A DNA stretch of 64,000 nt from Pelecanus crispus (taxonomy: Eukaryota > Chordata > Aves > Pelecaniformes > Pelecanidae). Positions 9,194-64,000 of this stretch are shown piece after piece. Below the pieces are notes generated by a model. That model did no database searches, was not told the DNA's origin, and was given only the letters and a program-made list of their open reading frames with translations. The stretch covers positions 5,309,001-5,373,000 of the forward strand of contig NC_134662.1 of assembly GCF_030463565.1 (NCBI RefSeq). The letters are read 5' to 3'. Both the position numbers and the translations under genes were made by a program. The number at the start of each line of letters is the position of its first letter. The stretch's first letter is position 1.

Positions 9194-9405
9194 TCACAGC
9201 CGGTCCATCCTGAACGTGTCCTCTGTGGCGGGGTCGGTGAGGACCATGTCTGGGTCATTCAGCATGTGCAGTCCATCCAAGGTTAAAGGGTCAATTTTGA
9301 GTTCATCCAGAGGGAACTGGGAATCCGTATCAAAGCTGACGTCTCCCACTCCTGCCAAAGAGCTGGTCAGTTCTTTTGATAAGCTGGGAGGAGATTCTCC
9401 TGTCA
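9194..9405 (-). CDS. CRTC1: CRTC1 terminal coding exon 14 (residues 550-619 and stop)
   Basis: The acceptor is TTCCCTGCAG. It encodes [20 protein letters not shown], then an acidic, hydrophobic-patterned tail with [20 protein letters not shown], and ends FRMDRL and TGA. This is the conserved transactivation domain; it is almost identical to the mammalian tail I recall. Confidence 0.98.
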
Positions 9406-12400: not shown

Positions 12401-15400
12401 GCAGAGTTACAACAGCCACCGCAGTTAAAAGCACTGAACACAGCCAAAGATTAAGATACTCAAAAAACCACAGGATGATGTCCACAACAGTGAACATAAG
12501 AATTTCAGCAACCATCACATTTTAAACATTCTCTCTCCTACGTCAGTAGCATATCTCAGTGCAGCTTATTTGCAGTTTGCATGCAAGGAAAAGAATGGAA
12601 GTCTTGTATTAAAAAAAAAAAAACAAGTGACTAAATTGCCCACAACCTCAATGAGAGGGGACTATCAGGAAAGAAGCAACAATATATTCTTTTTAAAGCA
12701 AACAAAACCTTCCCACCTGCAGCCAGAATCCTTGGCTATCACGTTATATGGGTGCTTTTGGATAAATGTGCCATCAGGGGAGGAATTTACAGCCCGAGAA
12801 TGAGACTCCGTGGGGGAAGGTGGCTGAAAGTTCAGCCGCGCGTGCTACAAATCTCCTTGCTGAGCAGATCCCGTTTGATCCAAGAACCGCTCCGAGCATC
12901 GCGGCGAAGCGCTCTCCACCGCTGCGTGCGAGGGTGCGGGTACGGTCTGAATGCACGTGGAGAGGAGAGAAATGTGCTGCAGAGCAGCGCTGCTGGGTAA
13001 CATCAGCACCCGGAACACAAGCCTGGCGGACCTCCACGGTGCTGCATTTAAAGCACGATACTGGCAGTCAGAAAGGTAGCAGGCAACTGCCTCCAAACCT
13101 TTGTCAGAGCAGATCGTAACGGTAACTTCTCAGTAAGAAATGGTTTAACTAAATGAAGGCAGCTCATCCTTCAAGACTGATTAAACGGAGCCTGAGCCAA
13201 GAACAGGGTTTTATGGACAAAAAGAAGATTTTGGTTCACTTTCCTGGGCATTTATGATCTGTCACAGCAATCACCACAGAACAATAATGACATCTTTGCA
13301 GCTTAACACCCTACTCGATGCCCTCAGAAGCGGGTAAAAATGGAAAATGGTTGTAATTGGAACCAGTCTTCCAATTTATCATCTGGTCCTCAAAACCACG
13401 GTGGCTGCTCTATCCCTCGCAAAGGACGGGGCTACGGGGAAGTTACCAAACAGCACAGGCAAGAGCCGCGTTACACCTGACAAGAGAAAAAGCAAAGCGC
13501 TACTTAAATAAAAAACCCCACGCTTTTCTTTAAACCACTGATACCTTACTTGCTGCCCAGCCACACATTGACCAACTACTCAAACTCCACATTATTCAAC
13601 CTGCTACATGTGTTACTTTTCTTAAAAAAAACCAAAAGGAGTCAGAACCTAGAGCTAACTCAAGCAAGCAGATCAGGACCAGCCAAGCTTAACTCTATCA
13701 CAGGAAAATCGTTCCCATCTTAAGGGGCAGGCATGGCTTCAGAGCTGCGTGATGTTTTATAACAACTTCTAATGAAAAATTTGGGCTTCAGGATGTCCCA
13801 TACTCAACGTGAATCAAAGCCAGTTTGGACCAGCACCAGAAATACAACTGATGTTTTTGAGAGCTCCAAAGAGGATCAGGGTGGTTCTTTCCTTTAACTT
13901 CTGACATTTCATTTTTACAGGAGCTTTTCAGAAGTAGGGCAAAACCTAAAACCTTTGCATTCCACTAAGCACTGTTCCCGTCCTAAAAAGTTTGGGCAAC
14001 AATAATGAACACAAGACCCAAACCTATTTGTGCAAGTCTACCTTAGTAACCCCTAACAAAACATACAAGCCCGTATTTATTCCTCAGCTCTGAAGTATCC
14101 CGGTTATTACATCTGTAAGCACTGAAACTCCCAAAGGAAATCAACTGGAAATGTCGTTACTTCAACACTTCAGAGTCCTAGAATAATTTATCAACAACTC
14201 TGTGAAAAACATCTTGCTAACACCATCTCCTCCAGAAACACTAGATGAGGTCTGTTTTGTCAACAGTACATCTTCTTGGGTTAATGATGTGGTGACTGCA
14301 AGAAAAAAAACCCCAAACCACAAAACCCCTGGCTTAAATTATTAATCTCAAAATACATACCATATTATCCAAGTATACAGCCATTCTACTAAAAAAAGCA
14401 GATTTCTATCTAATTGGAACACTATGCCAGGTGTTAGAGGAGAAAAGCGAAGTAGTAATAAACAAGCCATTGTCAATGAAAAGCCATGCAAACACAAAGC
14501 TGAGAACTACAAGCAGAGCTTTTCAATTCGTGTTTGAACAGGAAGACCTTCATATAACAAACACACGTCCAAAACACAAGAGCAAATAGATCTGGAGATG
14601 TGGAAAGATGAAAAATAACTTCTGGTGAATGAACCGTATGTGATAAAAAAATCAAACCACAGATTTCTATTTTTAGAGCGTGTCACTCATCATACTGATA
14701 CGCTGCGGAACGATTTAACCTAAAATTAATCAGAGAAACAGGAGCAAGTGGAGGACGCCCACCCGGTCACACCTACTTTATTCCGCTCTTGTCAGCCAGT
14801 GCCAGACTGTTCCACAATGGGCATATTCTGCTGTTGGAACCAATCTGCCTTTCCTCTTTTGGCAGATTACTCTACAGTCTAATGGATCCTGCTATTTGGG
14901 AGCTGAACCAACCCAAATTTTTCTTCTGAACTGTTTTTTCTTTCCCCACTGCCTCTCTCCATTGCAACCACGACAGATAGCTCGCTCGCCCCTACCAGCT
15001 TTTGGTTCATTGATGGAGGCAGGAAAGCTGTCTCGTTTTTAATTTAGCAAAAATAAAGAACTGTGTGGGTATTTTTAAGAGGCCAACGCTAAGTTAAGTG
15101 GCATTGATAAACCCTCTTCCTTTCGCGTGTGAGTTATGGTGTCCCACTTGAAAACAGCAAAACCTAAGCAAGAGTTTACAGGATAAAACAGGCCCAGCAG
15201 GAAAAAAATTATATTATAGCGTGTGCTCCACTGGGGAGTGCTTGCTGCACTCCAGTACTTTGGACTGACCAGTGGCAACAAGCCTGTGGACAAAACCAAG
15301 AAAGGGTTATTGAGAAGTCAAGGGGGAAGGAAAATCAGCGCAAAAAATCAAAATTGGATGCGTTGCCCAAACGAGAACTGGACCTGAGATTTGCAGCAAG

Positions 15401-18400
15401 ACTGGCAACAGCTTTGCTCTACAAGACAGCCTAGAGGAATAAGTTTGCTTGTTTTCTTTGAGCCACACACAGAACACAGCAGAACTGGCAGAAGCAGGCA
15501 GAAGAGAGAGAAGTTAAGAAGCAATTAAGCAAGGGTTAAGAAAATCCAGACAGTCCTGACACTCGGATCTATTACTGAGCTTACCAGTGACCTGTCTCTG
15601 GCTAATGGCAAGGAGAGACGAAGCTTCTGCTTTGGAACCATGAAGGGGCAGCACTTATTTAGATAGGATCCTCCTTACAGCCTTAAACGTTAAATGATGA
15701 AACAGAAAATGTATTTTCAGACTCTGTTGTGATGTTCTGGAATAATTTCCTGCACCTTGTTTCTACAGGTGGGATTTAGGAAAAGGGCAGCCATATGGAG
15801 CTATTTTAGCAGCATGGGATTATTTCCGTACTGAAAATGCACTCACTCCTTACATTAGGGGCACCCCCAAAGACTGCCTTGTTTTCAACTGTCTTGCTGC
15901 TAGCATATAAAAATTCCCCTTCATAGGATTACACACACACCAAGCTACAACTTGCATATAGGACGCGTGGATGTATGAGTAGATACATATACAGGAAGAA
16001 AAACCAGCTAGCATGCAAGAAAGCGTGTTTACTAACCCACTACTTGCAAGCCACAAGACGCAACAGCTCATTTTAAGAGCGTTTTCTTTCCAAGTGGATG
16101 TTCCCACGTAAAAAAAGGTCCTGATGCGAATGGATTTGGCCACACAAGGGATACTCAGTGCCACAGGAGTTACCCTGCTGCAGCAGGCACTCAAGCTTCC
16201 CTCTCTCCCCTGCCCTCCCAACCTTATCCGTCAGCTCCTACGCGATATTGCTAATTGAAAGGGAGGTTCTGTCCACGGTACACCCCAAAGAAATAACTGG
16301 GTTTAATTGCTTTCAAATAGTAGCTTTGATCAATAAAAAGGCAATTCACCAGCTATTGAAAAACTCTGGAACTGAATGAAACCGCAAACAAGATGAGACA
16401 TCAGTAATGCATGAGGCACATACAATTACAGTGAGACAACTATGGGTCAGTAATGGAGAGACTCAACTAAAAACAAACACGAGAAGCAAGGCCTGTGGAA
16501 GCACAGAGTCCCTTACTTGAGGGGAGCTGCCAGGAGAGAAGCCTTGATTGGAGACAGGAGAGGTGGGAGACTGGTTGGCTGGGGATCCAGCATTACTGCG
16601 GTACTGCTGGAGTGAAGCCTACAGAACAACACAGAATTAAAGACCATGGGATTGATGGAAGGTTGGAAAATTATAAACTTCTGGCGTACACAGCTCGAGG
16701 AAGCTGGGAGAAACCATCCTCTTCAGCAACTCTTGGCTATGTATGAAGACACGATTACTGTGAACAATGCCGCAAAAAGGAAAGAGTTACGATACCAGCG
16801 TGGCATGGTCTTGTCTGACTGAATGGCCGAGAGCAGGGCGGTGCTGTTGTACAAGCAAAACTGTTGAGATGTTTTCTCACTGTTCTCAGTTACGATCAAT
16901 TAAAAAAAAAAAAAATTCTGGTCAGCCAATGATTTAGGGAAAAGTAGTACTGAGAGCTGGGAATAACTAAAAAATAATGTAATTTATTCTTCAATTCAGC
17001 TGCCATACCCACACATTCTTAACCTGTGTTTACACTGCTCTGGAAATCCTGCTCCTATTACTCTGCCTAGTCTTAAACAGCCCGGGTGCGTTATCAAGAT
17101 TGAAGCGTATAACCATGCAGACTGGAATCCTTCCCAAAGCTGCATTTTACCCCAGGACGTGGAACAGACATTATCTGAGAATTCACACTATGTTTTGCAG
17201 GTTTACATTAGTTACGTTTACATTGCTCTCAGTCGCCCTGAGAACACATTGTCAAAGATTTACCTTTTTTTAGTCATAAAGAACCCCGGCTTTGAACATT
17301 TTAATAATCTTAATGGCATTTAAATAGAATGTCGCGCTAATTAACATAAACAGAAAGTATAGTTCTTCTCATGGTACTTCCTTTAGAAATTAACAGATGA
17401 TTGAGGAAAACCTGCAATCCGGTAGTTCTAAGAAAAGAAGTAATTTAATCACATAGCTTTGCAGCATGGGAGAACGTTGTACTACCACTGCTTTCTGACA
17501 CTGAATTCTGTAAGTCTCACGAAAATACGTCTTAACCCTTTTTGCTATGCATTGCTACTTACGCACTTTAAGCAGACATCCAAACTACAGCAAAATTATT
17601 TCAATTTTGCTTTACAAAAACTGCATAAAAGTTGTCGGTGAGACTGTAACGCAGCTCAAATGGCTTTTTGATAAACTAGCTTTAAATTTAAGTTTATTTA
17701 CGATTTTAGTTGCTTTAAAAGATAAGCACAGCACCCTAAAAGTTAAGGTCATAAAGAAGTTTAGGATGAGGAAAGCAACACAGAAAGCAAAGAATGAAAA
17801 TCAGAATCATCTGTACTGGTAGCTACATGAGTATTAGAATCAAAACATTCAGACACGTTTTGAGTGGGTCAGTATCCTTTCCACTGTGGGATTTGAGCTT
17901 CCTCTTCCCCTTCCAATCCTGAAAGGGAAGCAGCTTCTTTCAAGAAGCGCTTAGCAGCACAAACTGTTAAAAATTTCATCCACAAATGAAATCCACGATC
18001 AAGTGCTAGATCGACAGACAATGTGTTCTTCTCATTCTCGCGCCAGTCAGTCACTCCAACACTGCCAGAAGGACCCAACAGGTCAGACAACAGAGATCCT
18101 ATACAGCAGGGCAGAATGAGCAGAGAAGGAGCTGTGAAATTCCTCCCTAGCTGGCCTGTAACCCTGATCTTGCTCTGCATTTTGGATTTTCATGGGCAGA
18201 GACACACGCCATTTCGTAACAGACCATGTCAAAACAAGCAAAAAAAGAAGCCTGTCCATAAATCATTGCTACGTGTGTGCATACACTCCATTTCTTCTGG
18301 GCATCTGAAGGCAGCCACGAATCCAATTTTTGCAGATCATAATGTATGCTCTAAAATTCTTTAAAATGAAAGGGTTCTAAATATAGAAAGTATAAGAAAA

Positions 18401-21400
18401 TACCTGGTTCTCTCCAACTTTTGGAAAATGCTTGTTAGCAGGTTTCTTTATCAAAGTTCTGTTAACTCCTCCAGTCTATAGCACACTGTATAACATACAA
18501 CGTGTTGCGGGTGCATTACATTTAACAGCCTGAAAATATATCAGTGCAACAGCAGCAGCAAGGTATGAAATAAATGCTGATATATTTAAGCGGATCTAAT
18601 CAAACACGGAGTCGTAAGGGACACCGTTCTATGAAACTATGGCCACCCTAAGTGTACACTAAAACCAAATTTTCCTCTATAAAACATTTAAACGTGGATT
18701 CAACCAAAACCATTCTAAGACTACTTGAGGCTCTGCCTAAAAGTATACTTATTACACGGGCTGTCCAGCTTGAACGCTGACGCTACGCTGTATGCTACCA
18801 GGTTTTCCAAACGAAAGCTCTGCCATTTTCGGCTGTGCCCAAGCTTACCGAGTTGATGTCTATTCCCATTGAGGGCTGGGTCTGGCTACCCGGAGGCGAC
18901 TGTGGGATGGTAGAAGGTACCGTGACGGAGAGTGGGGGGAGTTGTGTTCCTCGCTGTAAACCAGAGGTCTGCATTAAAGGAGTGTTCTGAGGCAGGGTGC
19001 TTGCCACCTGGGTCTGCTGCTGTTGCTGGGAAGTTGTCTGGGTAAAAAACGGATATGGGGGAAGCTGCTGCTCCAGAGACAACGCATCCATAGCCACGGC
19101 CTTAAAAAGAAGAATCAAAATCACCCACGCTGGCAGGTAATTCCCCTTCATTTTCAAGCACATCAAGTTTCACAGCAAGAGAACCAAGTCAATCTTGTCT
19201 TGCATTTAAAAAACATTACCTAAAGGTTCAGCAACAGTCAAGAACATGTTTCAAAAGACTTAATATCACCTCCAGTCTACAATAAACAAATTCTCTAAAA
19301 TTTGTTGAATGTCCAGGTTAGAAATTGATAACTTAGTCAGTCACAGAGTCACACTTATGAAATCAATTTAAAAAGCTAATTGAGCTTCTCTCATGAATTA
19401 GAGAAATGTCTTTGAAATTTCACAACTAACCTTGGGACAACAGTGTTACAGAAAAGTGTCCTAATAGATGGCTTTTACCATGGTTCTAGAAAAGCGAAAG
19501 TAGACTCTGTCCCCTCTACAAACCTCTCCCTTTTTAAGGCTCTGGATTAATGAACACATTTAAAGAGGAAAATGACAGAACGAGAGAGATGAAGTTACAG
19601 CCAGCTTCTCCCTAGGTAAAATAATTACTCTGTGATTGAAAAATTTTAATTCTCCCAGCAAGTTCCTACCTGAGTAATGGGTGACAAAGGGGAAAGCGTA
19701 GGAGACATTTGCTGTGACTGTGGTCGTCTTGAGTCTGCACTCAATGAGAGAGGACTGACGGCTGGCTGACGGTGCTGCTGGGAAGGGGCTGGCGTCGTCG
19801 TCATTCCTGCAGGAAGGAACAAACCAACTTAAACGGGAACAGAGCAACGGTCTGTTGATACTTGTGTACAGGTAATTACCTAAATGATGAAAAATGAACG
19901 GCCTAAGTGGACAACCACTTAATGCAAAGTGCTGAACGCGCCTCGGCCAATCAGGCTGAAACTCATTAGCTAATTTGCAATTAATTTTGTCAGGCTGAAG
20001 AGCATCAGGATGAGAGGAAGATCCCCGCGGTTTATCTTGGACCAAAACCAGTCACAGTTGTTCAGGTTCGTGCACAGATATGGACTTAAATATGCAGAGC
20101 AGCGTCAGCGGTTTATAGAAACCACAGGGCATCGTTCTCACACACCTCCCGGGCTGCACGCACTGACCCCAGGAGAAGCACACTCTGCTCTATTTGCAAG
20201 GGCTCAAACTTCAGGAAGAAGATAACAGATCATGTAACAAGACTAATCAGAGGGCACTTGCGATATTATAAAAGCAAACACCTATTTAATGGAAAATGCA
20301 GAAGAAAAACTGGTTACACAGGAAGTACTCCATTTTTAATGGCATACCAGTGCACAGGAAGGCAGGAAATATCCTTTACACTCTAAAGAGCCACGACCTA
20401 GCAGGGGGTAGGGATAAACAATCCAACTATTGTAGTTTTGTTCAAATTCAAGACAAAAATCTGGAAGTTTTGAAACCTCTCCTATTTTCTGCCTCACCCT
20501 AGAGGAACTGAGACACCCTGGAAAGTGATTTCAGGACAATCTAGCTAGCGAGCTGTTCTTCTAGAGCTGCCAGAAAGGAGGAATTCACAAGAGCCTGCGA
20601 GCTCCTAGGCACCTGGCAAATGTTCAAGGCTTCCAGGCAGGCTGCCAGGGAGCCAGGAAGTCCAGGCTGCCAAGGAGCCAGCAGGCAAACTGGCTCAAAC
20701 CGCGCAGATTCTGAAGACTGCCTGGCTTCCCCTGCAATGTTTTCAAAATCAACACCGTCTCACGGAACATGTCAGCGAACTGACAAACTCAAATGCACAA
20801 ATGTGTAGTCTTAAGTTGCTGGCAGTTCTTTGTAACCTGACAGGTGTTTGCTTCCCCACCTTTTCTTGGGGCTGCTGGGGGCACGCCTGTGCAATGCACA
20901 GAGCTCCTGCAAAAGGGTCAAAAGCCTTTACATTTTCTGCTGGAGAGCTAGAAGATAGAGAGAGGCAAGGAAGGTTTGGAAAAATCAGTTCAAAAAAGCA
21001 CCAAACACTGACTATGCCAATGATTAAACTATGGGATAGTCTCCAAAGAGAAACAGGAAAATCATCAATGAGTCTATCTTTTTAATTCATGTCTTTGATA
21101 GATCAGGAAGCGTTTTCAAAGCAACTCTATACTTACTGGTTTGGTTTTATACCGTTCACTTTGCTAATTATGGGTACGGCAAAAAATTTAGCGACCCAGT
21201 CTGGCCTAACTGCATGCAAGTAGTTTGTTTCTTTTTATACACACAACAGCGCTCGCAGCACAGACTCTCAGTGACAGCCCATCTCTGAAACTTTGTACAG
21301 TCTCTTCCGAGAGCAGAAAACTCATCAAAAAGATGCTGCAAGCTGCTGGCCTACTCTGTACTCAAATGGTTAAACCATCTTCTTGCTTCATTCTTTAATA

Positions 21401-24400
21401 TAACTGCTCAGTCATAACACTACATTAACCTGATTACAATTACTTCCTTTTCCCAATATATGAGAGAACTTTTAAGTGGGTAAGGGAATCCTGTCTAACA
21501 CAGGAAATACACTTGTATTTTTGGATACAGCACCTTATTTCTATTCTAGGAAATCAACTGACTGCAACTGTCACTGACAATGAAAAAATGCAACCCTCTT
21601 CACAACTATTCTTGAGTACAACCCAGTGAGATTATTTAAAAGACAACAATCACCAGCTTAAGCTATTTGCCTGTAATGTTAACAAGTCCTGAAGTTATCA
21701 GCTGATCAGTATGAATACTGTAAATGCCAGCCTGGCAAATAATGTTTGTTTGTGGATTTGGTTGGTTGGTTGATTTTTTTAAATAGTTGTCAGTATTGGC
21801 AAAGTCCAAAAACCCCAACAAACATAACTCAGACTCACCATGCTGAACAGCTCAAACAGCACTCAGGAAGAGCTTGCAACAAAAACTACACTGCTAGGAA
21901 GGCAACAATTTCAACACAAAGGCACCGTAGTGAGAGCTGTGAGATATCAAGGTGCGTACTTGGTATTGTTTCCCAAAGCCCAGCTATATTATATAGCCTG
22001 AATATTCAGGATATTTTCAAAACTTAAGCAGCCAAGCTTACAAAAACTAGCACACCTTGTAAAGGTTCCACGTTATTCTTGATTGCTCAAAAAAGAAAAT
22101 TTGCTTCGGATGAAGCAAGCAATGTTCTCTCTCCAAAAGAACCCTCACACTGGAAAAAAAGACATTCTAAAGGAATGAAAACAAAAGGCCTACTTAAGAT
22201 ATTTCGATAACACAAGTGCTGTTGGGGTCAAGTACAATGAAGTACAAGGGAGGCACACTTTGGATGCTCTTCTCTCCTGTAATCTTATACATAAAATAAA
22301 CAAAAAAACCCCAAACCCAAACCAGCAGATTTGGGCACCAAGAACGTGAGAAAAAATGAAAGACAATTTGTAACTCATATAACTAAATACAGCTTTCTCA
22401 CTTTTTCATACAGAAATGGCTTGATAGAACTTGTTTACAAAGAAATGTCAATCAACAGCGAAGTGCAATTACCTCTCAGACAAAACAGTCATACCCAGCA
22501 ATGCAACTTCTGTAATTTAAGACAAGTGACATATTATGGACAAACTGTAAAAACACCTCAGTTAGGATCTTACCCTGATTGGCAGTGCTGATGCCCAAGT
22601 GAGTCAGATTGGCAGCAAGATTTCCGGTGCTATTGGAGCTACTCAGGGCTGGGAATGTGGATTCCTCAGGATCTAACGGTGTCGGGAGAGGGGAAGGGAA
22701 ATGGATGTTTGTCAGGTCTGGCAGGGAGCCGCCTGTGTTATGCGTGGCAGGAATCAGTGTTGTAGTGTTTTCCTGGTCAGCTGATGGAAAGATGCTAAGG
22801 AAGGGAGAGAGGGGGAAGGAAAAAAAAACAAAGACACATCTCAATTTAAATTTCAGCCTGGACAGATCTTTATAAAATCTATTTTAAAAAATGAAGGTGT
22901 CTTATACAGAATTATATATTGTATTTCTGATAAAACAGAGATGTAATAGCCAGTGGTTTACTCATAGAGGTCCGGGCTTGTCTTTTATCTATTGTGCTGT
23001 TATACCGTCTAAGGGCTTTTCAGAAAACTCAAAAGCAAGACAATGTTCAATATACAACATTCTTTCTTCAAGATCTCAATGCTCTTTAAAAAAAAAAAAA
23101 AAAACAAAAAAAAAAAAACCAAAACCATTGCTTAAAACTTACTTGATTCCTGGAACTTCACATGATTTAGGTCTTGATGACCCAGTCTAAAATAGAAGGA
23201 AGACATTTTTAAAGGCAAAGATACTGCTAGAGATTAATGTTCAGGATATATTTCAATTAGTAAGTTTTATTTAATTTAATACATTTCTACAGAAGAGCTA
23301 TTCTTCTACACAAGAGCTCTGTGAAGCTCTTAGAAGATATCTGTCACCTTTTTTGCTTTATTGGCCCAAGGAGGCTCCAATTTTAAGAGTTTCTCCTGAT
23401 ATAATCAAACGTGTGCATTCACACATACCTATAAAGTGCCTTTCTGATCTAATGTTTAGTGATTTGTTGCTAAATACAGCATTTAATCTCTAATCTCTGC
23501 AAGTAGTTTGTCTTGGTTGACAATAGAGAATTAATTTACCTAAATATGTTTAGAAAGTAAAATCTCTACACTTTGAAATGTGAGATTCCTACCTTTTTAG
23601 TGTCCCATCCTTGCTTAGAGAGGGTTTTGTCTGCCTCAGAGGTGGTTTCCTCCATTCCAGGGACAGTCAGTAATAGAACTAAAAAAAATGAGAACAAAAG
23701 GAATCATAGGATAATATTAAGCTTCTCAGTAAGAAATTTTCAGATTGGAAGTTTAACCATTTGAAAACTCTTAAGTAACCCATTATCAATGAATATGAAA
23801 CAGTGGCACTCCACTGTTATGAGACCAAAATTTAAAATACCAGACACCAGAAGAGACTAAAATTGTATTAATTAGCAAGGAGATGACATCAGCTTCAAAA
23901 AAACCCCCAAACAGTACTTCAAAAAAATTTTGGCCTCCAATTTAGTCTGCTTAGATCTAAATGGAAGACTGTATCTTGGGACCCAGTTTTTCCTATCTTT
24001 TGCATTTTGCACAAGTGATGTACACCTGGTACATCTAATGGGTGGCCAATAGGACAATTCCAGTGGGGAAAAATCCAGACCGTGTCCCCTAGGATAGAGC
24101 AAGCTGTTACTTCTCCATATTCCAAGCACATTCGTTTGTTCAAAGCAATCAACTGTTTCATCATGCTAATAGCACGGTGACAAAGAAACATCAAAAGAAA
24201 GCTCAGTCAGAGAGATGTATCAACAGAAGCCTTTCACACTGATGACTACAAATCCGTATTTATGCAACACCATTTAAGATGATCATTAATTAATGTTTTA
24301 CAGCTCTAGAAGTATATGGCAGAGCTGCAGTACAGTGCATGTGCACCTGAGTGTTGCGTGTTCACCTCTCTCTGGGCGGTTGTTCAAGGATTACATTTCT

Positions 24401-27400
24401 CTACAGAGATTTAAGAGCTTTTTAATGTATTTCTTGAACTGACAGCAGGAACAAGGGCCAGCAGAGGGCACCAGAATTGTTAGTGCCGGAGGGCTGCGCT
24501 GCTCCAGCTCCTAACTGGAAATATTATCAGAGACTATTGTTTGTAAGCATTGCCTCTGAGGGTATACTCACCGGGGATCTCAATCCCATAAATAAAAACT
24601 AGGTGAAGTCTTGCTACTTTACGATATTGTATCACTGACCACAAAATGCCTGTGATCTCTACATTTGCCTAGAAGTTACTACAAACTGCAAACCTCTAGT
24701 ACCACTGAGAGCAGTCTAACCACCAGAGTCCCACAAGCCCAGATTACTTTTCCCCATAGGGCAAGGTCTTAGAATAACAGAATACGGGGTTCAGGAAAAT
24801 GTTCTAGCTTGGCTTTGTATAATCTTTTCTGGATCTCAGTACCCAGAAGAGTAAATGTGGTCCTTTGTTCCAATTCCTGCCTAACTGAATCTAGAAAGTG
24901 TTACGGATACCTGTATTTATAGAAACAGATGAACATCAATACACGTGCATATAATCTGAAGTACAATGCTTTGAATGTTACGAATATTTTTACTGTTTTT
25001 CTCTGTTTACCTCTTTTCTGCTGCATGTCCTGTGACCCTCCTGAAAAGGAATCTTGTTGAGCTGGAGTCATAGTACTCTGGTGCAAGGCAGAATCGGAAT
25101 TTGTCCTGAAAGGAAGGCAAAACCAACATTTTTATTATCAGTTTCCCTAAATAAAAGAATGCTTAATCTCAGATAAATGTAACCAACTCAGTAAACCCTG
25201 AATACTCTGCATTAAAAACCCGAAATCTATATATGGCATATACCAGGCACCACTTCCTCGTGAAACAATCAATTCTCAGAATAAATTAGTTCAAGTTTGA
25301 AGAGCAATTGTTTCAATAATGGGATTGAGAGGAATACAGGATAAATCAGTTGCCATCATTAGAAAATAATTTGATATGCTTTGTTAAGATTACACATGAT
25401 CAAATAACGCAATTTTTAAGTTGAAAGCTGCTTATACATATTTTGGTTATAGTAGTCTTTGAAAAGAAAGCATCCCTGTTTCGTAGGGAGGGAAAATGAC
25501 TGGTTCAGGATGCGTGTACATTGTGGAGATGGGAACCTCCACGGTCAACACGTCTCTCGTGATGAACTGTCCTTCGCTCGGGAACGTCGGCCGCCACTTG
25601 GGCAACTCGGCACCTCCAGTGCCAGGAGCATGAGGGGTAGGAACAGCCAGCTCGGTGCTCCTTTCCACTCGAACGCTTGTGCAGGCCGACTAGCCCAGCC
25701 TCTGCACAGTGAGAAATATCCAAGTTTTTTTACAACTCAGCAATTTTGGGGTATGCCTTAGAACACCTGGCAAGATTTACCCTCAAAAAGATCACATTGG
25801 CTGACACACTTTAAGTTTAAAAGCAGGTCATCTAAAAGAATAAGCATAATGGAAGGAAAAAAAAAAAATCAATTTCTAAATTCAGGAAGTCGTGGCAATT
25901 CAGATGACCAACTGCTGTGGGGAATAATAAAGGCCTTTGTTGCACATGAGAGTGCTGTAGTATCAGAGAACGCAGCGCAAATACTAACACACATGCACAC
26001 GACTGTGCTACTAACCTTCTCCAGCTCGTGTCCGATGGGGGTGACAGATACACAGTGCCATACGGACAGCTGTCCACGTGATTCCATCAGTTAAGGGGAA
26101 GAACACCACTTTCTCACTTAAGTAGGAGGCCTGTTTGAAATTTTTTCCTAAGGAATAATTCAAATTACCCTGTCAGAACCACTAAGTTCACATGAGAAAG
26201 GCAAGCAGACTCCCTATGGGGAACATACTGACTTTAAAAGGACACTCAAAACAAAATATGGTCTGAATTGTTGTAATGTTTGAGCAACAGGACAACCACC
26301 TTCCTTTTCCTTTTCAGAGCATCTACCTCTTCGCTGAGAAGCCATCATCTCTCCACTCTCCCACTCACACATCCCCTTTAGCCCCATCAAGCCAGTCTGA
26401 TTGCAGCACATTTTAAGCCAGTCAGAAATAATCAGCTAATTCATTTTCACAAATGGCAAGAAGAAATCACCGTTGGCAAATGCTAAGCTGATGAATCAAC
26501 GTGTAATAAAATGCACAATGAACTGCAAAGAATTACTCTGGTTTGGGTTTACTCAGTTCTGAAGGGAAACTCAGTTTCACCAAGACCGCCTTGCCTTTTC
26601 CATCAAAGGATCTCAATCCCTCTCAGCTTCATGTGTATCATTATCCCCACTTAGGGCTGAGGAAACAGAGAACGGTAAATGCTTACTTTACAGAATAGCA
26701 GGTATTTATAGACTGGATCACAGTTCAGAAAAAGCAGATGACATTAACTGCACAGAGATGGGAAGCAACTCTGCTGACAGGTGAGGAGGGGAGGAAGAAG
26801 GGAACTGTAAAAACTGAAAACCGTGATATTGTTGAAAAGGTAGGTGTTCACTGCCAGCTCATGAACCAAAGGATATTTGTCTTCCATGTTTATCCACAGA
26901 GAGAGGGCGTCGATGCGGGGAGCCGAGACGGTTTCTGTCACGATACACTCTGTCCACCAGACCATGATGCCGAGTTGTTCTGCTTGTGTCCAATCCTGAT
27001 GACTGAAAAGGAGTCTGAGAGAGACATGTGAAGTTATAAGCAGAAAAATACATGCACGAGCACCCAGAACCTATTCACGTTGTATGCAAGGCTGTATTAT
27101 TCTAAGGAATAAAACTCAAAAAAGATACGGACAAGTGTAGCCATGTAAATTTTTCATCCGACAACATTTTCACTACAGCCATGGAAAGCAATTACCAAGG
27201 CTATCTCTTCCAGACAGAGATTAGAGACAAGTGGAGGCAGACCATGCTAGACCTGCCCTCTCGTAAATCAGCACTGCTCTCCGACCTTTGCATCTCTAGA
27301 ATACCACAAGTGAGCGTGGCAGGGAGCCTACTGCCAACTGCTGTTTACATTCCCTTGGTGCAGCATGCAGCATGCATCCAGAAGGAACATGCTGACAACC

Positions 27401-30400
27401 AGAGCTTAAACTACAAGGGCAGGAGATGCAGGAAGATGATGCACGGTGAGCCTAACATTCATCGGAACACGCCACGCTCCCTCAAAACTTCCCTTCACCC
27501 CTCCTTTCAGCATCATTATTTTAAGGGGACACTGATAGAATTGAAAGAAAAAGAAAAGCAGTTTCCTTCCTCCTCTGTCTAGAAAAAGTTACAGCACCCA
27601 GTATTTTTTAAGTGATTTTCATTTCTTTCAGGTTGCGCAGTGAACCTAGGTGGGTTGATTCCACTTTGAATCGTATCAGCGCTGTTATCTCGAGGGTATT
27701 TACGTGTCAGCAACTAATTTCAGACAATGAGGATGGCAGAGAAAAGACAGGGAAGATAAATTCCCAGGCTAAACCGGAAAACTTCTCCCACATTTTCAAG
27801 AGCCCTTCGCAGTGTATACCTGTGGGGAGGGGGGAAAAGGAAGTGCCGAATGGTCAACCTCTACTCCTACTTCAACAGCAATATATGGGTCTCTGGGGGA
27901 AAAAAAGCTACACAGTCTTCCACTGCTTGCCAATGTGAACAGCTTTGCTGAGTCCCTCAACACCATCTGTTTGGAAATCCAAAATTTCCTCCTCCATTCA
28001 GGTGCTGAACGTGGCAAACGCACTGTCCTCTCTGCCAAGCCATGAAACCATCTGGCTTCCACATTAATCTTTTTTTCTTTTTCTCTTTTTTTTTCTTTTA
28101 AAGTGTCCAGCTTTGGCTCTTTAAATGATTATTTCTAAAAAGTTTTACATTTATTTTTAAATGTTTTGTTTGTAATAATTTTTTAAAGAGTCTTTCTACT
28201 ATTTTAAACTCTTTTCTATTTAGTAAATATTAGTCTCCTCTCCCTCTATGAACACATAACCGTGTTAATATAAATGGATGCAAAGTGGCTGTGGTGTTTA
28301 TTTTCTCATTTCTGGGCCAACATTTTATATGCAGCAGAATATTGCTTAAGTCAACATGGGACTAGCAAGAGAGCACAGTGACTTTACCGTACTCTCAGTC
28401 ATTAAGATCATGGTGTTTTGCTTCAGTTCCTTCACAAGTATGACTTTCTTATATGAAGACTTAGAAACCTCAAGTCATAGCATCTCAATTTTAAGTAATT
28501 TAAATTAAAACTTGTTGGTTTAATCTCTGCTGCAAACACTAAACCACAATACAGTTCTACCTAACCGGCACCACACAGAACTGGGAATATTCGTAATTCC
28601 AAAACAACAACAAAAGGTCTCAAACTCTTCCTTGTACTGTTGTTACATCAATTCATCAAAAAGGCAGCAAAATTTGCAAATACATGCATGCTTGGTAGGT
28701 CAACAGGAAAAGCAATTTCCTATGCCAGTGGTCCCAACCACAATGTTACTAAAAAAGGAGAAGCCAGTCTGAAGCATACAGAATGCAGACCTCACCTGGA
28801 ATTTAAAAGGAAGCCAATGCATGTGAGCATACAAACAAAAAGCTGAATGCAAAAATAGTTACTTCTTGAGTTTTTCCTTTTTTTGGCACAACTTCTATAC
28901 AAAAACACCAGAAAAATCTAATTTGAGTGGCACAAGTAAACATGGACCATGCCCCGTCACAGGGCTACAATTTACAGAGCGAGGAATTTTTGGGCAACGC
29001 TGTTGTCTGGCTTTCCAGGAACAAAGATCCCAAGTGAATCCCTAAGTTGCTTAGGGAAATCAGAAAAGACAACAAACACTCCAGAAAATGGGCATCACCT
29101 CCAACAGGTCTAGCTTCTCTCAGGAACCATCCCATGAAACTTACTCTGGACCAAACACCAGGCAACACACCTTCATTAAAATCCCCATCCCTGCAGGGCA
29201 TGTGATGCTTAACTATAGTAAACAACTGCGATTAAAAAAAACCCAAAGAACAGATCTAAGCATCAATTTTATTTGGAAAATGAAGAACTAGAACTGTTTT
29301 GCTTCCCTGAAAAACATTCAAGGATTTGAGATCAGAACCAAAACTCCACAAAACATTAAAAAAAAGCAGCAGCTAAATACAGACGGGAAGGAAAAAGCTC
29401 AGCGCTCTAAAGCAACAGTGTCCCTTTAAGATTTATCAAGACGTTGACTTAAGGAATAAAAATGAGCAAGACGGATGAGGGGGAAAGTGAGGAGTGGTAC
29501 CTACTGACAGGTCACATTTCGGTGCCCCCGGTGACAAGCAGCATTTGGGTAATCATTCTGCCTTTCCCGATGGAGTTTAACATGCAGGCTAAGTGCACAT
29601 GCTCAGAGATTGCTTAAACCACAGGCCAAGCCAGTGCCAAATAAACCACCGTCTGCACCAAATTAATCCGCCATAAATCACGAGTAATCACATGACAGAC
29701 CACAGCAAGTCCAGGGAGTCTGTACAGGAATTATTATGCATGTTCCAAACTGGGATGCATGGCAAAACCTGTATTTATGTGACAGACCATAACTCCTTTG
29801 GAGCTGGGACGGTGAATCAAATAAATACTGTGCATACCAGAAAAAGTGTAACATGTGCTAAAATACGTATCTACCTGGGCAAACAGTACACCAGTCCTAA
29901 ATACGTATTTGCACAAACCTAAATACTTGTTTACCAAAGACACAGGAACTGCTCCAAAGGCTTCTGCCAGAGCTCCGTTGTGCTGCAAATGCAAAGAACC
30001 AAGATTCTCAGACACTAACGCTCTCCCCAGAGACAACCAGCCAGGCTTCACCTGATCGGCACATCGTACAAGTATCTTTTGGCAATTTCATCGTATTTTA
30101 GCTTAAAATTGAAAAACCTGGAAAGCATTCATCACTGATACAAACACATGACTTGTTTTGTTGCTTGCCACCATTTGTTATCTGTAACAGTATTAACTTT
30201 GGATTTGTGTGTGTGTGTGTGTGTGAAAAAAATATACAAAAACCTGGAGTTTAAGGACAATTTGTTTCCATATCCTCCTCCAGTCATTCATAAACTTTGG
30301 AACATTCACTTTCAAGCACTCTGTTAGCTTCAGGACTAAAAGAGTCTATGTAATAACCATCAGTGATGGCCATCGAGCACAAAAATACTGAAATACGATT

Positions 30401-33400
30401 GCTTAAAAAGAACAGTAGCTGTGAACCTCCGTAGCAAGAAACTAAAGACAAAAACTTGTTGAGACCAGACGTCTGTGGAGTAATGCTAAGGACTTCATAA
30501 CATTACAAATCTCTGCACTGTATTCCCTAAAGGCAACCAGATTAAAATGGACATTTGCTTCTCCTCTTGCACGAGGGTCAATCTTTTAACCTCCACAAAT
30601 TCAGCTGTCTACATGTATTTCAAAAGGCACTGTTAGATGTTATTGTCATCAATAGTTTCTCTGTATTTATTAAGTGAGCCTTCATCAGAAAAACCACAAA
30701 CTGCAAAATTTAATTCTTACCACATCCGTGTGAGATAAAAGGTAAGTGTTGCTGCTCAAAAAAGGCAAACTAATGCAGAAATTTTAATTATTTTGAGCAC
30801 TCTAAATCAACTAACTATAGAAATCAGGAGTCCCAAAATATCCATCACTAATCCTATCCACTATACAACATCTTATGTCCAAATATGTTTACTAACAGCA
30901 AAACTTTCATATAAAACAATAATTTTCTGTTTATAGTGCATTACCTCTGGAGTCACAACAGCAGGAGGAAAAAAAAAAAAAACAACAAAAAAACCCAGTA
31001 CATTTCTACATTTACTTTTCAGGCAGACCAAGGAAAAGTGACTATTGTGATACTGGTTTGTGTCCCATTCCCCCTTCTCCTCCCCTAAAATCCATGCGTT
31101 ACTCCCACGGAACATGCACACCACCATGGGGTGCTTCTTCCACACCCCCATCTGCCAGCGCTTTCCGCATCACCTTGCATTATTTGCTTCCACTTTTGCT
31201 TTGAGTCTACAGTATCTTCGCAGAAGATTTCATTATGAATTTGGTACTGAACAAAAAACCCCCCACCACCACCACGAATATTCGCTGACAAAGAAATTGC
31301 CTTGCCTCTGCGTATTCTTGACACAGAAGCATCACGACTGGGGACAGGAGAACTAATATCTAACACTAGATATATACAACACAAAAATTATAGATATATA
31401 CAATACAAAATACTAGATATATTCAATACAAAAATACAACACACCCCATACACAACTACACTCCATTACAAAAGAGCAAAAAGTTTTAAACCAGGGTGAC
31501 CTGCTGAGGCCATGGTGCCATGTTCTGAACAAGCAGCTAGCTCATGGTCTTCTGTGAGGAAAAAATAGCACGCAGGCACAGCACTGATCACCAAAAAAGA
31601 AAGAACCCCCCTATTAAACTCACCTGGAAGGGCAGATCCATGGCACTGTTTCCAATCTGATTCACATTTGGCAGTGACCCACCGTAGTACTGGGCACGAC
31701 TCTGTCCCAGTTGCAAATACTGGGTTTTCTGCAGCTGTAACTGAAAGAAAAGGAGGAGGAAAGCGTAAGGACAACTCATTTATTTTTCAACTGCTTTAGC
31801 TGACTCAACTCGACACCATGTCCGTTATCGCCGAGAATGGATACCATCTATAAACAGCATGAATTCAACTTCTCCACAAAGCACGGCTGGCAAACTGCCA
31901 CGTTAGGTCTTGAGTGATAGTGTAAAGTGATGGAAGAAAAATCAACTTCATCGTCAGCGATCGTATTCAATTTCCAACAAATAACCACCACGTGAAACCA
32001 CATGGTTCTTATGTCACCTGCTATTCTGAAAACCGGGACATAAAAACCCCATGTCACTCAGACCATGACCCTAATATAAAAATTAACCAGCTGTTCATGT
32101 GTGCGATATACAAATAAGAAACTAATCTTAATTTAGTATATTGAGTATACTGTTTAACCAAATATTCAACTTTTTAGCAATCTAGATAACAGAGACGTCA
32201 GAGCAAGTTGTAGCTTTCCACCAGTACATAAGCGTTCTTGTTTCCTGCACCCACCAGGAAAAGCTCTGCAGGAAGGGCAGAGGCACAAGTTTTCAAAGCA
32301 AACCCAACCAACCAAAGCAAAAGAGAACAGCAAAGAATTCCTTACTGAACATGCATGAAAACAAATGTGACAGTCTGCAAAGTTTCACTAAATGCTAGGT
32401 ATCACTCTCCAGCTCTGAATGACACCTCTCTACTAAAATATTCTAGTATGCTTTCCCGTAGTTGTATAGATTTCTGGTGTACAGAAAGGCGTGCAAGAAG
32501 AAGCTGTTTCTTTTCTACTCAAACCTCAACTTATTTTCCTTGTCACTTCTTTCAGAAGACTATACTGTCTCAACAGCTCGTTAATAAGCGCTACCATTTT
32601 TGATCAATCTTTTGTTAGTGACCTTTCTCAATTTTTTAGTTTAGTAGTACCAGTATTTAAAATAATTCCTCATTCAATTCTGTAAATGTTTCCACTCAAC
32701 ACATCTAGGTTTAATACCACGCTGCCACTGAAGCCCTATTTTACATTGATAAAGCAGAATTTGCAATCATCCGAACACAACAATCCTGCTCCCAGGGATG
32801 CATCTTCCAAGGACTCGAGAAACTACAATTAAAGTAGCAAAGAAATGAGCTTACATAAGTTCCCTCTCCTCCCACTGTGGAGGAGTACGTATTTTATAAT
32901 GTATGTTGTTCCTCACTAGATGTCAACTGGCTGGTTTTGCACTCTGAAATGCAAGAACATTCCTAGATTGGTAGCAAAGGATTGTTTAAAGACTAAATGT
33001 TCAGATCTTGGACTAGATGCAGGTTGGTTGCTAAGGTACAGCAGTGTGTACATCAACAAATCTGGTTTAGTTTCATTCAAACAGATCCGAAAGCCTTTGT
33101 CTCGCAATGCCACAATTCTGAAGAGCAAAGTTTGGAAAAGTACTAGAAAACGCGGCATCCCCAAAACCGGATGTTTCTATGGGGTTTTTTCTTCACACTT
33201 TCTTCAAGCAAAGGAAATGGCAGGATGGAAACGAGTAGTCCTGCCTCTACAGCTTTACCACAAAGGCCCTGAGGTTGAGTGAAGATGTTTCTAGCAAAGC
33301 AAAGGAAGAGCTAGCACCTTCCGTGTTGACAAGGTGATGCATGCAGAGTCCCCTGATAAAACGGCAACACACAAGCAGGGACGCTGAGCGGCGGTGACAG

Positions 33401-36400
33401 TGAAGATACCACGCTGCGCACCGGTAGCACCAAGACAGGACAGAGAGCAAAGGGACCAGTCTGCTTACATCGTGCTGACACGATATAAGTATATATCGTA
33501 TATTAATGTATGTATATTAATGTGGTCCCTCAACAGAGGAGGAGAAAACGAGATCACCCCGAGGGAAACAGTGCATGCAGTCTTCCGACTGTATCCCTAG
33601 GAAAGCAACTCAAATACCCTTTATTCACACAATCTCCCCTAGAAGCCACCAATTTCCAAATACACAGGCAGTCAAAATCTACTGCTTTAGCCGAGGGACC
33701 AAATCAATCCAAGGCTTCCAAGACAGCTCTTAGAGATGAAACCTCTGTATGGAGCAGGCGCTCTCAAAAGCCTCAACGATTTGGGCAGGACACCAGTCAC
33801 AAAGCGGCTAATGGTTTTTTTCTTAACCAAAGGGCAGATAAATTCCCTCAGCCCGAAGACTTATAAAATATTCACAGTGCGCCGTATCAAACGGTTCAAC
33901 AAGATCCCATCTAAAAAGCAGGAAAGTGCCCCCCTCCCCCCCCGCTTTCTTTTGCAATCTTTTGACACGCAATTACAATCCAGTGCTCTCTAAGCAATAC
34001 ATGAAATTAGAGAAACGCTCCGCGCTGGTATCATTTAATGAGTCACAGCCCCTCTAACTCATAGCTGCAGATCACTAAAAGCACAATATCAGAACTAGCT
34101 GTGCTTTTTGCCTGGCCCGTACATATGTTTTTGTTGTTAAAAAAAGGCTTGCTTGGGATGGGTGCCAAGCATTGAAGTAACTATTTCAACAGGTGTTGGT
34201 TTCTTTTAAAGAAGCCCGGGGGTGTGTGTGGGGGGGGTTGCTTTATGTTTTTTTAATGTTTTGGCCTTCCCCAGTACATACCTACCTCAAAGCGGAATGT
34301 AATAAGGAGGTCACGACCATTTGTCTTTCCACTGCAGTTCAACGTGGAAATGAGGAAACACAAGAGATCGAGAACTAAAGCGGTTCTCAAGAACGAGCTT
34401 GTTAAATGGCTTTGCAGTATCATTAATTTTAGTAACGCTACCTTCGATAAACACTTTTGGAGATCCATGCCAAAAATAAGAAAACCGATTGCTTGTTATT
34501 GCTATCATACATCATTACACCAGCGTGCAGATCTGTAGCGGTTCCTCTCTTCAGCCTCCTGCCTTCGCACAGCGAGCGGCCCCCAGACTACGCGGTTTAT
34601 AGGAGACCATCAACAACTGCCACTTGCAATCTCTGAAGATCAAGCGTAAGCAGAGCAGGCCAGCGTGCCGAGCGCCTCAAATCTCCAGCTTTTTCGCTGG
34701 GAAGAAAGCGTTTTTAAATACCGCGACATTAGACCTTACTGTCATTCCAGCAGGAGATCTCAAGCAAGATCAGCTCAAGTCTTTCCTCAAGCAGAGGAGC
34801 AGCAAAAAAACCTGCAAATGTCACTGTCATGCTTCGAGATAACTCAGGAGTCTCACGTCTTACTAAGGGGACCTGTGCGCAAGGAAAAGCAGCGCTGAAA
34901 ATGAAAGCAGACATCGGTTGTGACTAAAATGAACATTTCCTCCTTTTTCTGTAAAACTACCTTGCGAGGTAAATTAAGTATACTGCACAATTTGGGGATT
35001 GGGGATTAGGTTTGAAGAGGGGGGTTGTGGGGTTTTATTTTAAAAGGAAAAAAAAAAAAAAGCCTTTTCTTAATAGAAAAATTCAGATTACTCTTAAAAT
35101 GTTAACAAGTCTCATGACAACTCTAGCTTTATCTCCTAGGGTTAGATTCAATTAGTGACAACTTGCTTTCTATATGAATTTAGATAGCAAAGTATGATAA
35201 TGAATTACTTAGTGTTCACCAGACATATTAATTTCTTGAACCATGAGAACTCAGTGACTCTACATTACAGCTTTTCCATTTATGTATTATGTGGCCAAGA
35301 TAATAGCTCCTTGACAGTTGAAAATACTGCTAAATTCCAGGTCTTTCCTGAGAAAGCTTTTGGTAAGGAAAAAGCTTTTGCTTGTTAAACAATTTTGTTT
35401 CTGCTTGGCATTCTTGCTCAGAAGAAATGTTTCCCAAACGACAGATCCTAACTGAATCTCTAATTTTCCCTCCACCAGCATTTCTCTTATGCTACTTAAA
35501 GAAAAAAATGAAGATTTTAAGTTAAAACCCAATTTAACCGTTAAAAACCAAATACTTCTGCACAAGCAGTTTTCTAGAATAGCTGAAAACATTCCCCAAA
35601 TAAAAGGTTGACACACTGTTGGTTTGCCAGATTTGAAGTTATGTTAAAACCAATAAATTGCTGCAATGCTTCAAGAGTAACAATCTGCGAGGCAGTAGCA
35701 GCATCTTTACAGCAAACAGGAAAGGAATCATTACCTTTCCATGTACTAATCAGGAGTTTGCAAGCAATTACATTCTTAACTCAGCCATCAGCTGAATAAC
35801 ATGACGCGATCTTACTCTGGTTAATGGCACTAGACACACACAACGCTGGTAAGAAATCAAAAATTTTCGATTTAACACAATCACTGACTTGCTAACAATG
35901 GAACACTCTTCCAGACACTAGCTTTTACGTGAACCCGTTTATATGAACTACCTCAATTTTTCCATTTGGATTGGGTTAAAGTTTGCTGGATGTACAGCTG
36001 TGTTTGTAGGGAGAGATTCAAGTTAAACAATAATTAAAAAAGAAGGAGAGAAACACATCCCTCAAAGCATATCCAGTTTTCCTACAGACTTTCTAAGTGT
36101 CCAAAATATGCAGATGGGAATCAAAGGAAGCATTTTACTAAAATTCAACACTTCAGCTTCTCTAAATTCTTCCCCCAAAAATCTGGGCAAATTACAAACT
36201 TATGGACAGAACTCAACTGTAATCAGACAGCAAATCTGACGCTAGAATGAAGTCAATCAAAATCCACTCTAACCGCTTCTTTTAAAATGCCCTTTTTAAT
36301 ACATAAAAATTTGATTCCCATAAGTGCAATAAAAGGGTGGAGTGTCCTTTTGATAAAAAAAACCCTAAGATATCTGATGAATACAGGAAGTAAGATTTCA

Positions 36401-39400
36401 TGATAACTGCTCTTTTGCTGGTTTGCAGTTTCCATACCAAGCTTTCTTACAAATTTTAGCTTTCCACTTTAGAAAGCTTTCTCTTTAGCACGTTGATGCT
36501 AATAAGCAGCAAAACGAGTGCAGATTACAATTAGAAATGTCTTATTGAAGCTTAATTGGAAATGAAATTCTGTTTAAAGGATTAACTGGAAGTTTTAGAG
36601 ACTGCATGATAGGCAAATCCTGTTGTTCAAGTCAGTTCCAAGTTTCCCAGTTGGATACGTCTGAAATGTCTTAGGAAGGCTTTCTCCTAGAGCAACCAGA
36701 GGCAGGACCAAGAAAATACAGTCGCCTGGAGTTTTTAAACCGGCTGGCATTGATTTGGCATCCTCAATAATATGTCACTCCTATTTTTTGATCTCTCCCT
36801 AGGAATGAACTCACAGCCCAACTCTTGGTAGAAAGCTCTGCCTCAATGAAAAGGCACTTATACTACTATTTTTGGCCTCCCTGCAGAAAAGCCAAAGATA
36901 GGCAGTAGAGACCAAGTGCCCCTTTATCCGCAGAACTGGACTTTTCCAATTACAGGCAGGGCAGCAAAAGAGAAACTTTCCAGGTCAAACGTGCACGCTC
37001 TGCCTCTCCTGCGAGCAAGCAGAAGGCAGAGTCTCCCAAACTACTAATCTGGCTTCTTTCTCCAGCACGAAATTAAACACCAAGTCAAACAAACCCTCGA
37101 GACAAGTCAGTTACTCAGTGGAATCCCAGGGGAAGTATTTGCTTCAAAGGGAGATTTCTTCCCATTCACAATCCTCATGTTGATAAGAAACGCAAATACA
37201 GTCTTAAAAAGAAAGATAAGTTAACATCAATTTAATGATTCACAGTTATTGCATTCTGGCTTAGTGGCAATATAGCCACTAGCTAAAAATCACCTAATTA
37301 CCCATCTAACTATTAAATTTAAAAAGTTCTTTCTGTTTGTGTCCAAGTTGCCAAAAACTATCCAACAATTAACTAACTGCTCTGACCACCAAAAGAGTTT
37401 GGCTCCTCCCTTCCCCTCACACTAACCCTCTTCTGTTAATATTCTAAAGTTCGTATTAGAATTTGAATTTTAAAAACTCTGCACTCGCTACCCAACCAAT
37501 TTCTAAAATTAATATACATCAAAATAACTGCTCATTTACTAAAACCACCCTCCATGAAAGCTGTCTAGAATTTATTTAATTAAATGAGGAGGGATTCACA
37601 AATCAATAAAAGAGAATCCTGGTAAGCCAAGGAAAAGAACATTTAAATGTTAGCCACAATTTCATTAATTATAGCAGGTATTCATCTGCCAGTCCCTCCC
37701 TACATCAACAGACTCAGACACAATCTCATTAAAGCCAAGAACCTAAAATTAATATCAATAATGAGAAGACACAGAAGGTTATGAGCAGAAAAGTTTCACG
37801 AGCAACGGAGGGTGTAGTTTTATAACACAACGGGGCAGATTGCACCGTGGGGAGCACAGCCCCAGTGCTCTGGCTGCCTCTTCTGTCCCAGGAAAGCTGT
37901 ATAACCTCGCCGCTCTGCGCCCAAGCTCTTACGACCCGAAAGAAACCCGGTTAAAGAAGCTGACCCAGCAGAAAAACCGCGTGGGTTAGCTTGGTTTCTC
38001 TTAACTTGCTCACCCCACAGCCAGGTGAATTTCTGATAGCAGGAGGGAAACAGGAGAGAGCAGCGGCAGCCGACAAAGGGACAAGTTCTTCCGACGTTCA
38101 GCTACCAGGCTAACGCAGCTGTACGCTCCGATTTCACACCAAGCTTGAGGGCTGCCTGCCGAAGCTGGTGTCTGAGCAAACCTCATCTTCGCTCTCACGC
38201 AAGCTGGGAAGAATGAAAAGAATGAGTCAAATGAACGACGAGAGAACGGGCCTCGCGCTACAGCAGCCCGGCATTTCTGTCTGCACCACCAAAGCTCCGC
38301 AGGACGCTACGTGAGCAATTAAAGCCTTTTTCAGGGGCAATTGCTAATTTTCAGGTTACTCAACACAAAGTATCAGGAGTGTGTCAAAATTACCAGCTGG
38401 GGTCTAAAGTACTACGTCTCCTGGAGTCCACTGGACCTGTGCTGCAAGCGTATAAAGCATTTTAAAAACCAAAGACCTGCTGTTGGGTTTCCCCCCCCGA
38501 GTACCAAGTGTATCAAATCGGACGTTCAAAGCATCAATTTCTTCTATTTTACTGCTTGCATCTTAGTTATCCTCCTATAAAATGAGAATGATCACACCAG
38601 AAGAACATCGTAAAGATTAAGTTGGTTTTGAACTACTCAGACTCCTTAACAGAGTAAGGCACAGAGCACTTCCCTGGGGGTTTAATTATCCTATCAGCAA
38701 ACCAAAGCGTGAGTGGTGCGCTCTATGGCCCAGAGCTACCCTCTGAACAATGGGGATAAATCAAGATATTCAACAGCCTCCCAGTAAGCCACCATTATCT
38801 CCTTTTGTGCTGAAAGAGGCAGGGGTCTCTCAGTCTCACTACGGGAGTGGGGAATATATGATAAATTAATTAAAGACTATCATACTGCTCACGCAGAAGG
38901 AGAAGAATGAAGATTGGAAAGACTTTTGGAATGCTTGACTTTTTAATCTATATAATGCTTTTGTAGTTTGAGTACAACCGATAAGTTAATACTGACCGTT
39001 TTTATAGTGCTATCAAGTTTTTGACAATTTATTGCAAAGAATAAAAGAAGACTTCCATTATTTAGATGTTACAGATTAAAATCCACCTACACGTGTTATC
39101 TAATAGCTGAATAGGTGGCTAAGAGATGGATGTCTATTTGCAGTTTTAGCCCTTTACTTTCATTTTCCAAGTAATTAAAAATTAGATGATGAAATCTAGT
39201 AACATCAATACTTTCCCTTTCATCTGAGCATGCACCCGCAGAAGTGTGTACATGACAGATGTTTGTTTTAAATCCAAAGCACGTCCTGATGGTCAGGGGA
39301 AATAAACGTTATGATGTAAACCCACTTCTCTTAAATTCTCCTTCAGAGCACCTAATGCTACTCTGCCTAATACAAAAGAAAAAGGTGCAGTATCGGGAAA

Positions 39401-63145: not shown

Positions 63146-64000
63146 TTATCTCTGGGTCGTTACCTGCGGTAGTATAACGGGAGCGCACGCTATCCCAGCA
63201 AAAGATTCTGGAAAATGTAGGTCCCTTTCCCATTCATCAGTTTCCGTGTTATACACCTGCACAATGCTTGTAACATTGTTCAGGTGCCAATTGTACCCTC
63301 CTACGATATAAATCTTTTTTTCTAGTAAACAACAGCCAGCTTCCGACTGACCTGCACGCATAGGGCTCACCGTTGTCCATTGGTCTGTTTCAGGCACGTA
63401 ATACTCCACAGCCAAAACATCGAAACAACGGTCAACATGGTCCATGCGGCCTCCCAGAGCGTAAATCCTGTTATTGGCACTGACCATGGCATGCAGAACT
63501 CTGGGTTCGTTCATTGGGGTTTTAAACTCCCACTGGTCCACGGCGGGGTCGTAACAGTGCAGGGCTTTTTTGTCTTCCACTGAAATGCCATACCCACCTG
63601 ATATGTACAGTTTGTCTCCTACCGTGGCTCCAGCATGCCCCCACGTCCTGCGTTTCAGGGAGCACACGTACGACCACTCGTTATTTTTGGGGCAGTACTT
63701 CTCTACGGAGGCCAAGCTCCCTGAGCGGTTCCTCCCACCGGTGGCATACACCATACCGTGGAGGACGTTGAGCTGGAACTGGATCCTGCTCTCCTGCATG
63801 GCCTGGATGCGCAGCCACTGGTTCAGGTGCGGATCGTAACGGTAGCAGATATCCACCGCTCCCTCGCCACTCCGGTACTGCAGGTGCTGCCCTCCTACGA
63901 TGTAGACAAAGTTGTCGAGCACGGCCACGCAAGAATGGCTGCTGCCCACCTCCATTTCCGTCAGCTCCTTAAACTGGCGCACGCTGGCGTCCGGCAGGTA
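63146..64000 (-). CDS. KLHL26: Kelch-like protein 26, C-terminal part (cut by window edge)
   Basis: The open frame runs from the window edge to TAA at 63146-63148, giving 284 residues and no start. Visible text shows at least five kelch blades, each with the Gly-Gly doublet: IVGGQH, ATGGRN, ISGGYG, ALGGRM and IVGGYN. They are spaced about 50 residues apart with the conserved downstream Tyr and Trp (for example YDPHLNQW, YDPAVDQW, YNTETDEW). KLHL proteins carry N-terminal BTB and BACK domains, expected beyond the edge, and act as substrate adaptors of CUL3 E3 ligases through this propeller. The ending FAGIACAPVILP resembles the KLHL26 C-terminus I recall, and KLHL26 is the known neighbour of CRTC1. 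Another KLHL paralogue is possible but unlikely given synteny. No intron interrupts the part seen. Confidence 0.88.
   Translation of the reverse strand, partial: YLPDASVRQFKELTEMEVGSSHSCVAVLDNFVYIVGGQHLQYRSGEGAVDICYRYDPHLNQWLRIQAMQESRIQFQLNVLHGMVYATGGRNRSGSLASVEKYCPKNNEWSYVCSLKRRTWGHAGATVGDKLYISGGYGISVEDKKALHCYDPAVDQWEFKTPMNEPRVLHAMVSANNRIYALGGRMDHVDRCFDVLAVEYYVPETDQWTTVSPMRAGQSEAGCCLLEKKIYIVGGYNWHLNNVTSIVQVYNTETDEWERDLHFPESFAGIACAPVILPQVTTQR

Follow-up and report, generated by a model that had tools for sequence, protein, structure and literature searches.

Intron 3 of CRTC1, a gene lying within the 64-kb window of Pelecanus crispus DNA that we analysed (the window being the whole stretch of 64,000 nucleotides), is very probably a U12-type intron of the AT-AC subtype that would be removed by the minor spliceosome. 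We put the probability of this reading, which is drawn from the sequence, at about 0.95. The assignment is the most likely one because a join that neither removes nor adds a coding base coincides with a characteristic donor, branch-site core and terminal AC. On this assignment, CRTC1 mRNA would be expected to need U11/U12/U4atac/U6atac function.

The gene model was built by tblastn with a human CRTC1 sequence. This probe matched all 14 exons; identity was 76-100% in 12 of them, 67% for exon 9 and 52% for exon 10, CRTC1 being the only family member compared. When joined, the 14 exons form a single open frame of 619 residues from ATG to stop. The translation of exons 1-5 contains the Pfam domains TORC_N (3.4e-26) and TORC_M (2e-11), and thus the domains of the CRTC (TORC) family are present. 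Two short motifs are also kept, PNIILT in exon 13 (10183-10363, minus strand) and PGINIF across exons 7 and 8 (22574-23186, minus strand); PMC6317279 describes them as two calcineurin-docking motifs of mouse CRTC1. About 540 bases into intron 1 of CRTC1 lies a tandem array (51046-51334) of approximately 6.7 copies of a 43-base GC-rich unit with 72% matches, the consensus of which carries GGGTGAGG on the plus strand, antisense to CRTC1. Upstream of CRTC1, an open frame that leaves the window (63146-64000, minus strand) encodes kelch repeats, with five stretches of Kelch_1, and is probably the end of KLHL26, a gene that adjoins CRTC1 in human. Rfam at gathering thresholds returned no matches in the 64-kb window. 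The features that bear on intron 3 are listed in Table 1.

Table 1 Coordinates of CRTC1 and of the elements of intron 3 (positions in the window)
Feature	Position	Strand	Description	Remarks
CRTC1 coding region	9194..52000	minus	14 exons, 619 residues and stop	
CRTC1 exon 3	26877..27014	minus	138 bases, ends ...SVDKHGRQ	96% identity to residues 81-127 of the human CRTC1 probe
CRTC1 exon 4	26016..26077	minus	62 bases, 20 residues and 2 bases, then donor GTTAGT	
CRTC1 exon 5	25011..25105	minus	95 bases, holds the Ser151 codon	
CRTC1 intron 3	26078..26876	minus	799 bases, phase 0, AT-AC termini, very probably U12-type	Exact boundaries, only lossless join
Intron 3 5' splice site ATATCCTTT	26868..26876	minus	9/9 against RTATCCTTT, C at +5	
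Intron 3 branch-site motif CCCTTAAC (putative)	26090..26097	minus	Followed by 12 bases, then exon 4	
Intron 3 3' terminal AC	26078..26079	minus	Read from the sequence	

U12-type introns have the consensus RTATCCTTT at the donor and TTCCTTRAC at the branch site. In the CRTC1 gene, exon 3 ends in CATGGAAGACAA at 26877 (minus strand; codons GTG GAT AAA CAT GGA AGA CAA), the intron sequence runs from ATATCCTTT to TTCCCCTTAACTGATGGAATCAC, with CCCTTAACTGATGGAATCAC at its 3' end and CAC as its last three bases, and exon 4 starts with GTGGACAGC at 26077 (minus strand; codons GTG GAC AGC TGT). The nine bases of the putative branch site, CCCCTTAAC, match TTCCTTRAC at 7 of 9 positions, with C for T at positions 1 and 2 and the core CCTTAAC intact, and the motif CCCTTAAC differs by a single base from TCCTTAAC. 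The candidate branch adenosines are at 26092 and 26091, 14 and 13 bases before the last base of the intron. The first-pass annotation of this DNA had described AT-AC termini together with a U12-like donor and branch motif, and all three are present on the minus strand as it described them; its gene, its intron boundaries and the phase of the intron were likewise correct, the exact sites being 26876 and 26078.

Passages of PMC3584512 and PMC8199999 indicate that membership of the U12-type class is set by the 5' splice site and the branch site, with no distinct pyrimidine tract, and PMC8199999 gives a distance of 10-20 bases between branch site and 3' end, with an optimum of 11-13. The spacing in intron 3 falls within this range, with 12 bases between the motif and the exon and 13 after the last A. 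Moreover, AT-AC ends occur in chicken in 18% of U12-type introns and in 0.01% of U2-type introns, according to PMC7367187. Following the established pathway, excision of intron 3 by the minor spliceosome would begin with recognition of the donor ATATCCTTT by the U11 snRNP and of the branch site CCCTTAAC by U12. U6atac would then take the place of U11, and the intron would be excised with AC as its 3' end, such that CAA is joined to GTG (Gln127-Val128) in phase 0.

The remaining 12 introns of CRTC1 provide a comparison within the gene. (Their boundaries were set manually, with GT-AG sites chosen to fit both the tblastn matches and the frame, and the open joined frame served as a check; rival sites were enumerated for intron 3 only.) Among the 13 introns, intron 3 alone has AT-AC ends. 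Its donor matches the U12-type consensus at 9 of 9 positions, with the donors of the others matching at 2 to 6 of 9, and its +5 position is C, the corresponding base being G in 11 of the other 12 and A in one. Note that the branch-site count by itself cannot separate the classes, because intron 7, an ordinary intron, also reaches 7/9 with TTCCTTCCC, a stretch that has no branch adenosine and lies inside a pyrimidine run. It had also been claimed that intron 3 has no long pyrimidine tract, and this holds: the pyrimidine share of the 20 bases preceding the last three is 0.60, the lowest among the gene's 13 introns. The share of intron 11 near its 3' end is 0.65, only one base above that of intron 3, so the low value is weak evidence.

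Because AT-AC ends alone leave the class of an intron unsettled (passages of PMC2831892 and PMC3584512), we considered whether intron 3 might instead be excised by the major (U2) spliceosome, as some AT-AC introns of sodium channel genes are. We regard this as very improbable. The entire donor agrees with the U12-type consensus, CCTTAAC sits at the spacing typical of U12-type branch sites, and the base at +5 is C rather than the G that such introns carry; it was on this last point that a U2-dependent AT-AC intron was rejected.

A second alternative, that intron 3 is an ordinary GT-AG intron with a misplaced boundary and the true join nearby, has a precedent, since for most U2-type introns annotated with odd ends in chicken and Tetraodon a normal site is only a few bases away, as stated in PMC7367187. 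Within the segment running from the first base of exon 3 to the last base of exon 4, we enumerated all GT-AG, GC-AG, AT-AC and AT-AG pairs separated by 60 bases or more, 6291 in total (1857, 1230, 1229 and 1975, respectively). The frame was kept without a stop by 41 of these (6 GT-AG, 6 GC-AG, 17 AT-AC and 12 AT-AG), and exactly one pair, the AT-AC pair 26876/26078, removed or added no coding base. All six frame-keeping GT-AG joins lose at least 78 coding bases, the mildest of them discarding 26 codons of conserved sequence that is near to that of human, and the mildest GC-AG join between exons 3 and 4 loses 48. This enumeration led us to reject a misplaced GT-AG boundary, a reading that we find scarcely credible. 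The first-pass annotation had called the AT-AC join the only one that keeps the frame; 26876/26078 is indeed the sole lossless join, but it is one of 41 that maintain an open frame, and the claim is therefore better worded as the sole join that preserves the whole protein. The nearest alternative join pairs the donor at 26876 with an AC at 26072 and drops six bases (Val-Asp). This AC (minus strand), six bases beyond the 3' splice site, is a possible minor alternative end; its use would yield an in-frame isoform in which exon 4 lacks its initial Val-Asp.

How often the motifs arise by chance depends on whether the boundaries are fixed. ATATCCTTT occurs once per strand in the 64-kb window, and an unanchored scan (RTATCCTT, then CCTTRAY within 5000 bases, a short spacer and AC) returned three pairs, all on the minus strand, two of which have no relation to exon ends (26876-21930 and 10083-6261, minus strand). 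Since the scan yields three pairs and not one, the motifs by themselves are poor evidence. At boundaries previously set by protein homology, a first-order Markov model for the minus strand gives the combination of the donor 9-mer, CCTTRAC in any of seven spacings and AC a probability of approximately 2e-10, and on this estimate we rejected a chance motif. It is hardly conceivable, even though a single assembly was examined, that the junction stems from an error of assembly or from a mutation that left it non-working in a gene decaying at this exon, given that the 619-residue frame is intact throughout and that an error would hardly create a 9/9 U12-type donor with a correctly spaced branch core (~2e-10).

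With respect to the function of the protein, the first-pass annotation had tied the intron to splicing of the segment that precedes the phosphosite Ser151. The position is right, as the serine of RRTNSDS is residue 151, 24 residues past intron 3, but its codon is in exon 5, and intron 4, an ordinary GT-AG intron, stands between exon 4 and that exon. Until there is proof to the contrary, the tie between the class of intron 3 and Ser151 is to be taken as a positional coincidence. (An S151A mutant increases nuclear CRTC1, according to PMC5116671.) Retention of intron 3 would end translation after 132 residues (the first 127 and five more), and skipping of exon 4 (62 bases) would shift the frame and lead to a stop after 172 residues. 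Speculatively, if the minor spliceosome were limiting, the retained transcript would encode an N-terminal portion with TORC_N but lacking Ser151 and the remainder, and such a truncated product could oppose CREB signalling if the RNA escapes decay. PMC3728624 reports that U6atac is short-lived, that p38 MAPK raises its level and that hundreds of minor-intron genes are limited by this level. It is tempting to imagine that the output of CRTC1 depends through intron 3 on U6atac raised by p38 MAPK, and that a CREB coactivator would in this way be tuned by splicing, but this is speculation and we think it unlikely.

We also searched for relatives of the gene. With the protein of exons 3-5 as query, a search of the bird's own genome (1.31 billion bases in 310 contigs) gave six matches, three of which are CRTC1 itself. 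The other three lie on contig C22 (3654054-3657553) and resemble exons 3, 4 and 5 in that order, with E-values of 1.9e-4, 0.06 and 0.18, the first alone being significant; this locus is probably a CRTC paralogue. The first two of these matches are 219 bases apart, and therefore an intron may occupy the same interval. The second contains one TAA, perhaps a run-on into an intron. No other CRTC genes were found in two public collections of prokaryote and viral contigs, as expected there. A search of PDB chains returned five sequences, three being N-terminal pieces of CRTC2 that end before the exon 3/4 junction and the remaining two having E-values of 0.3 and 0.99.

CRTC1 was not found as a minor-intron gene in the article texts that we searched. 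No word beginning with CRTC occurs in the main texts of PMC7367187, PMC2831892, PMC8199999 and PMC6717393. Pairing CRTC1 with ZRSR2 retrieved what titles and abstract openings indicate to be cancer-sequencing studies and a case report, and pairing CRTC2 with U12-type retrieved a review in which the mention is unrelated. In a broader mixed search, none of the matches listed combined a CRTC name with a minor-intron term. CRTC1 intron 3 is probably already present in minor-intron tables, and it is a sound, ordinary example of a well-known class.

Intron 3 is easily misannotated, and it offers a clear test case for gene predictors limited to GT-AG. In addition, CRTC1, a CREB coactivator, joins the genes whose mRNA should require the minor spliceosome, and should intron 3 prove to be conserved in mammals, disorders of minor splicing would have CRTC1 as a candidate target.

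Compared with the vertebrate U12-type AT-AC introns collected in U12DB, IAOD and the Minor Intron Database, intron 3 shares the donor ATATCCTTT, the terminal AC and the core CCTTAAC 12 bases before the exon, and it follows the same pattern in that it is the lone minor intron among many ordinary ones. It differs from them in opening TTCCTTRAC with CC rather than TT, and in its phase. Phase 0 is under-represented among U12-type introns, as PMC7367187 reports, and intron 3 is therefore a less usual, though not an odd, member of the class. With the U2-dependent AT-AC introns of SCN4A (intron 21) and other sodium channel genes, intron 3 has its AT-AC termini in common. However, the sodium channel introns have G at +5 (PMC2831892), whereas intron 3 of CRTC1 has C at +5 and a branch core of the U12 type.
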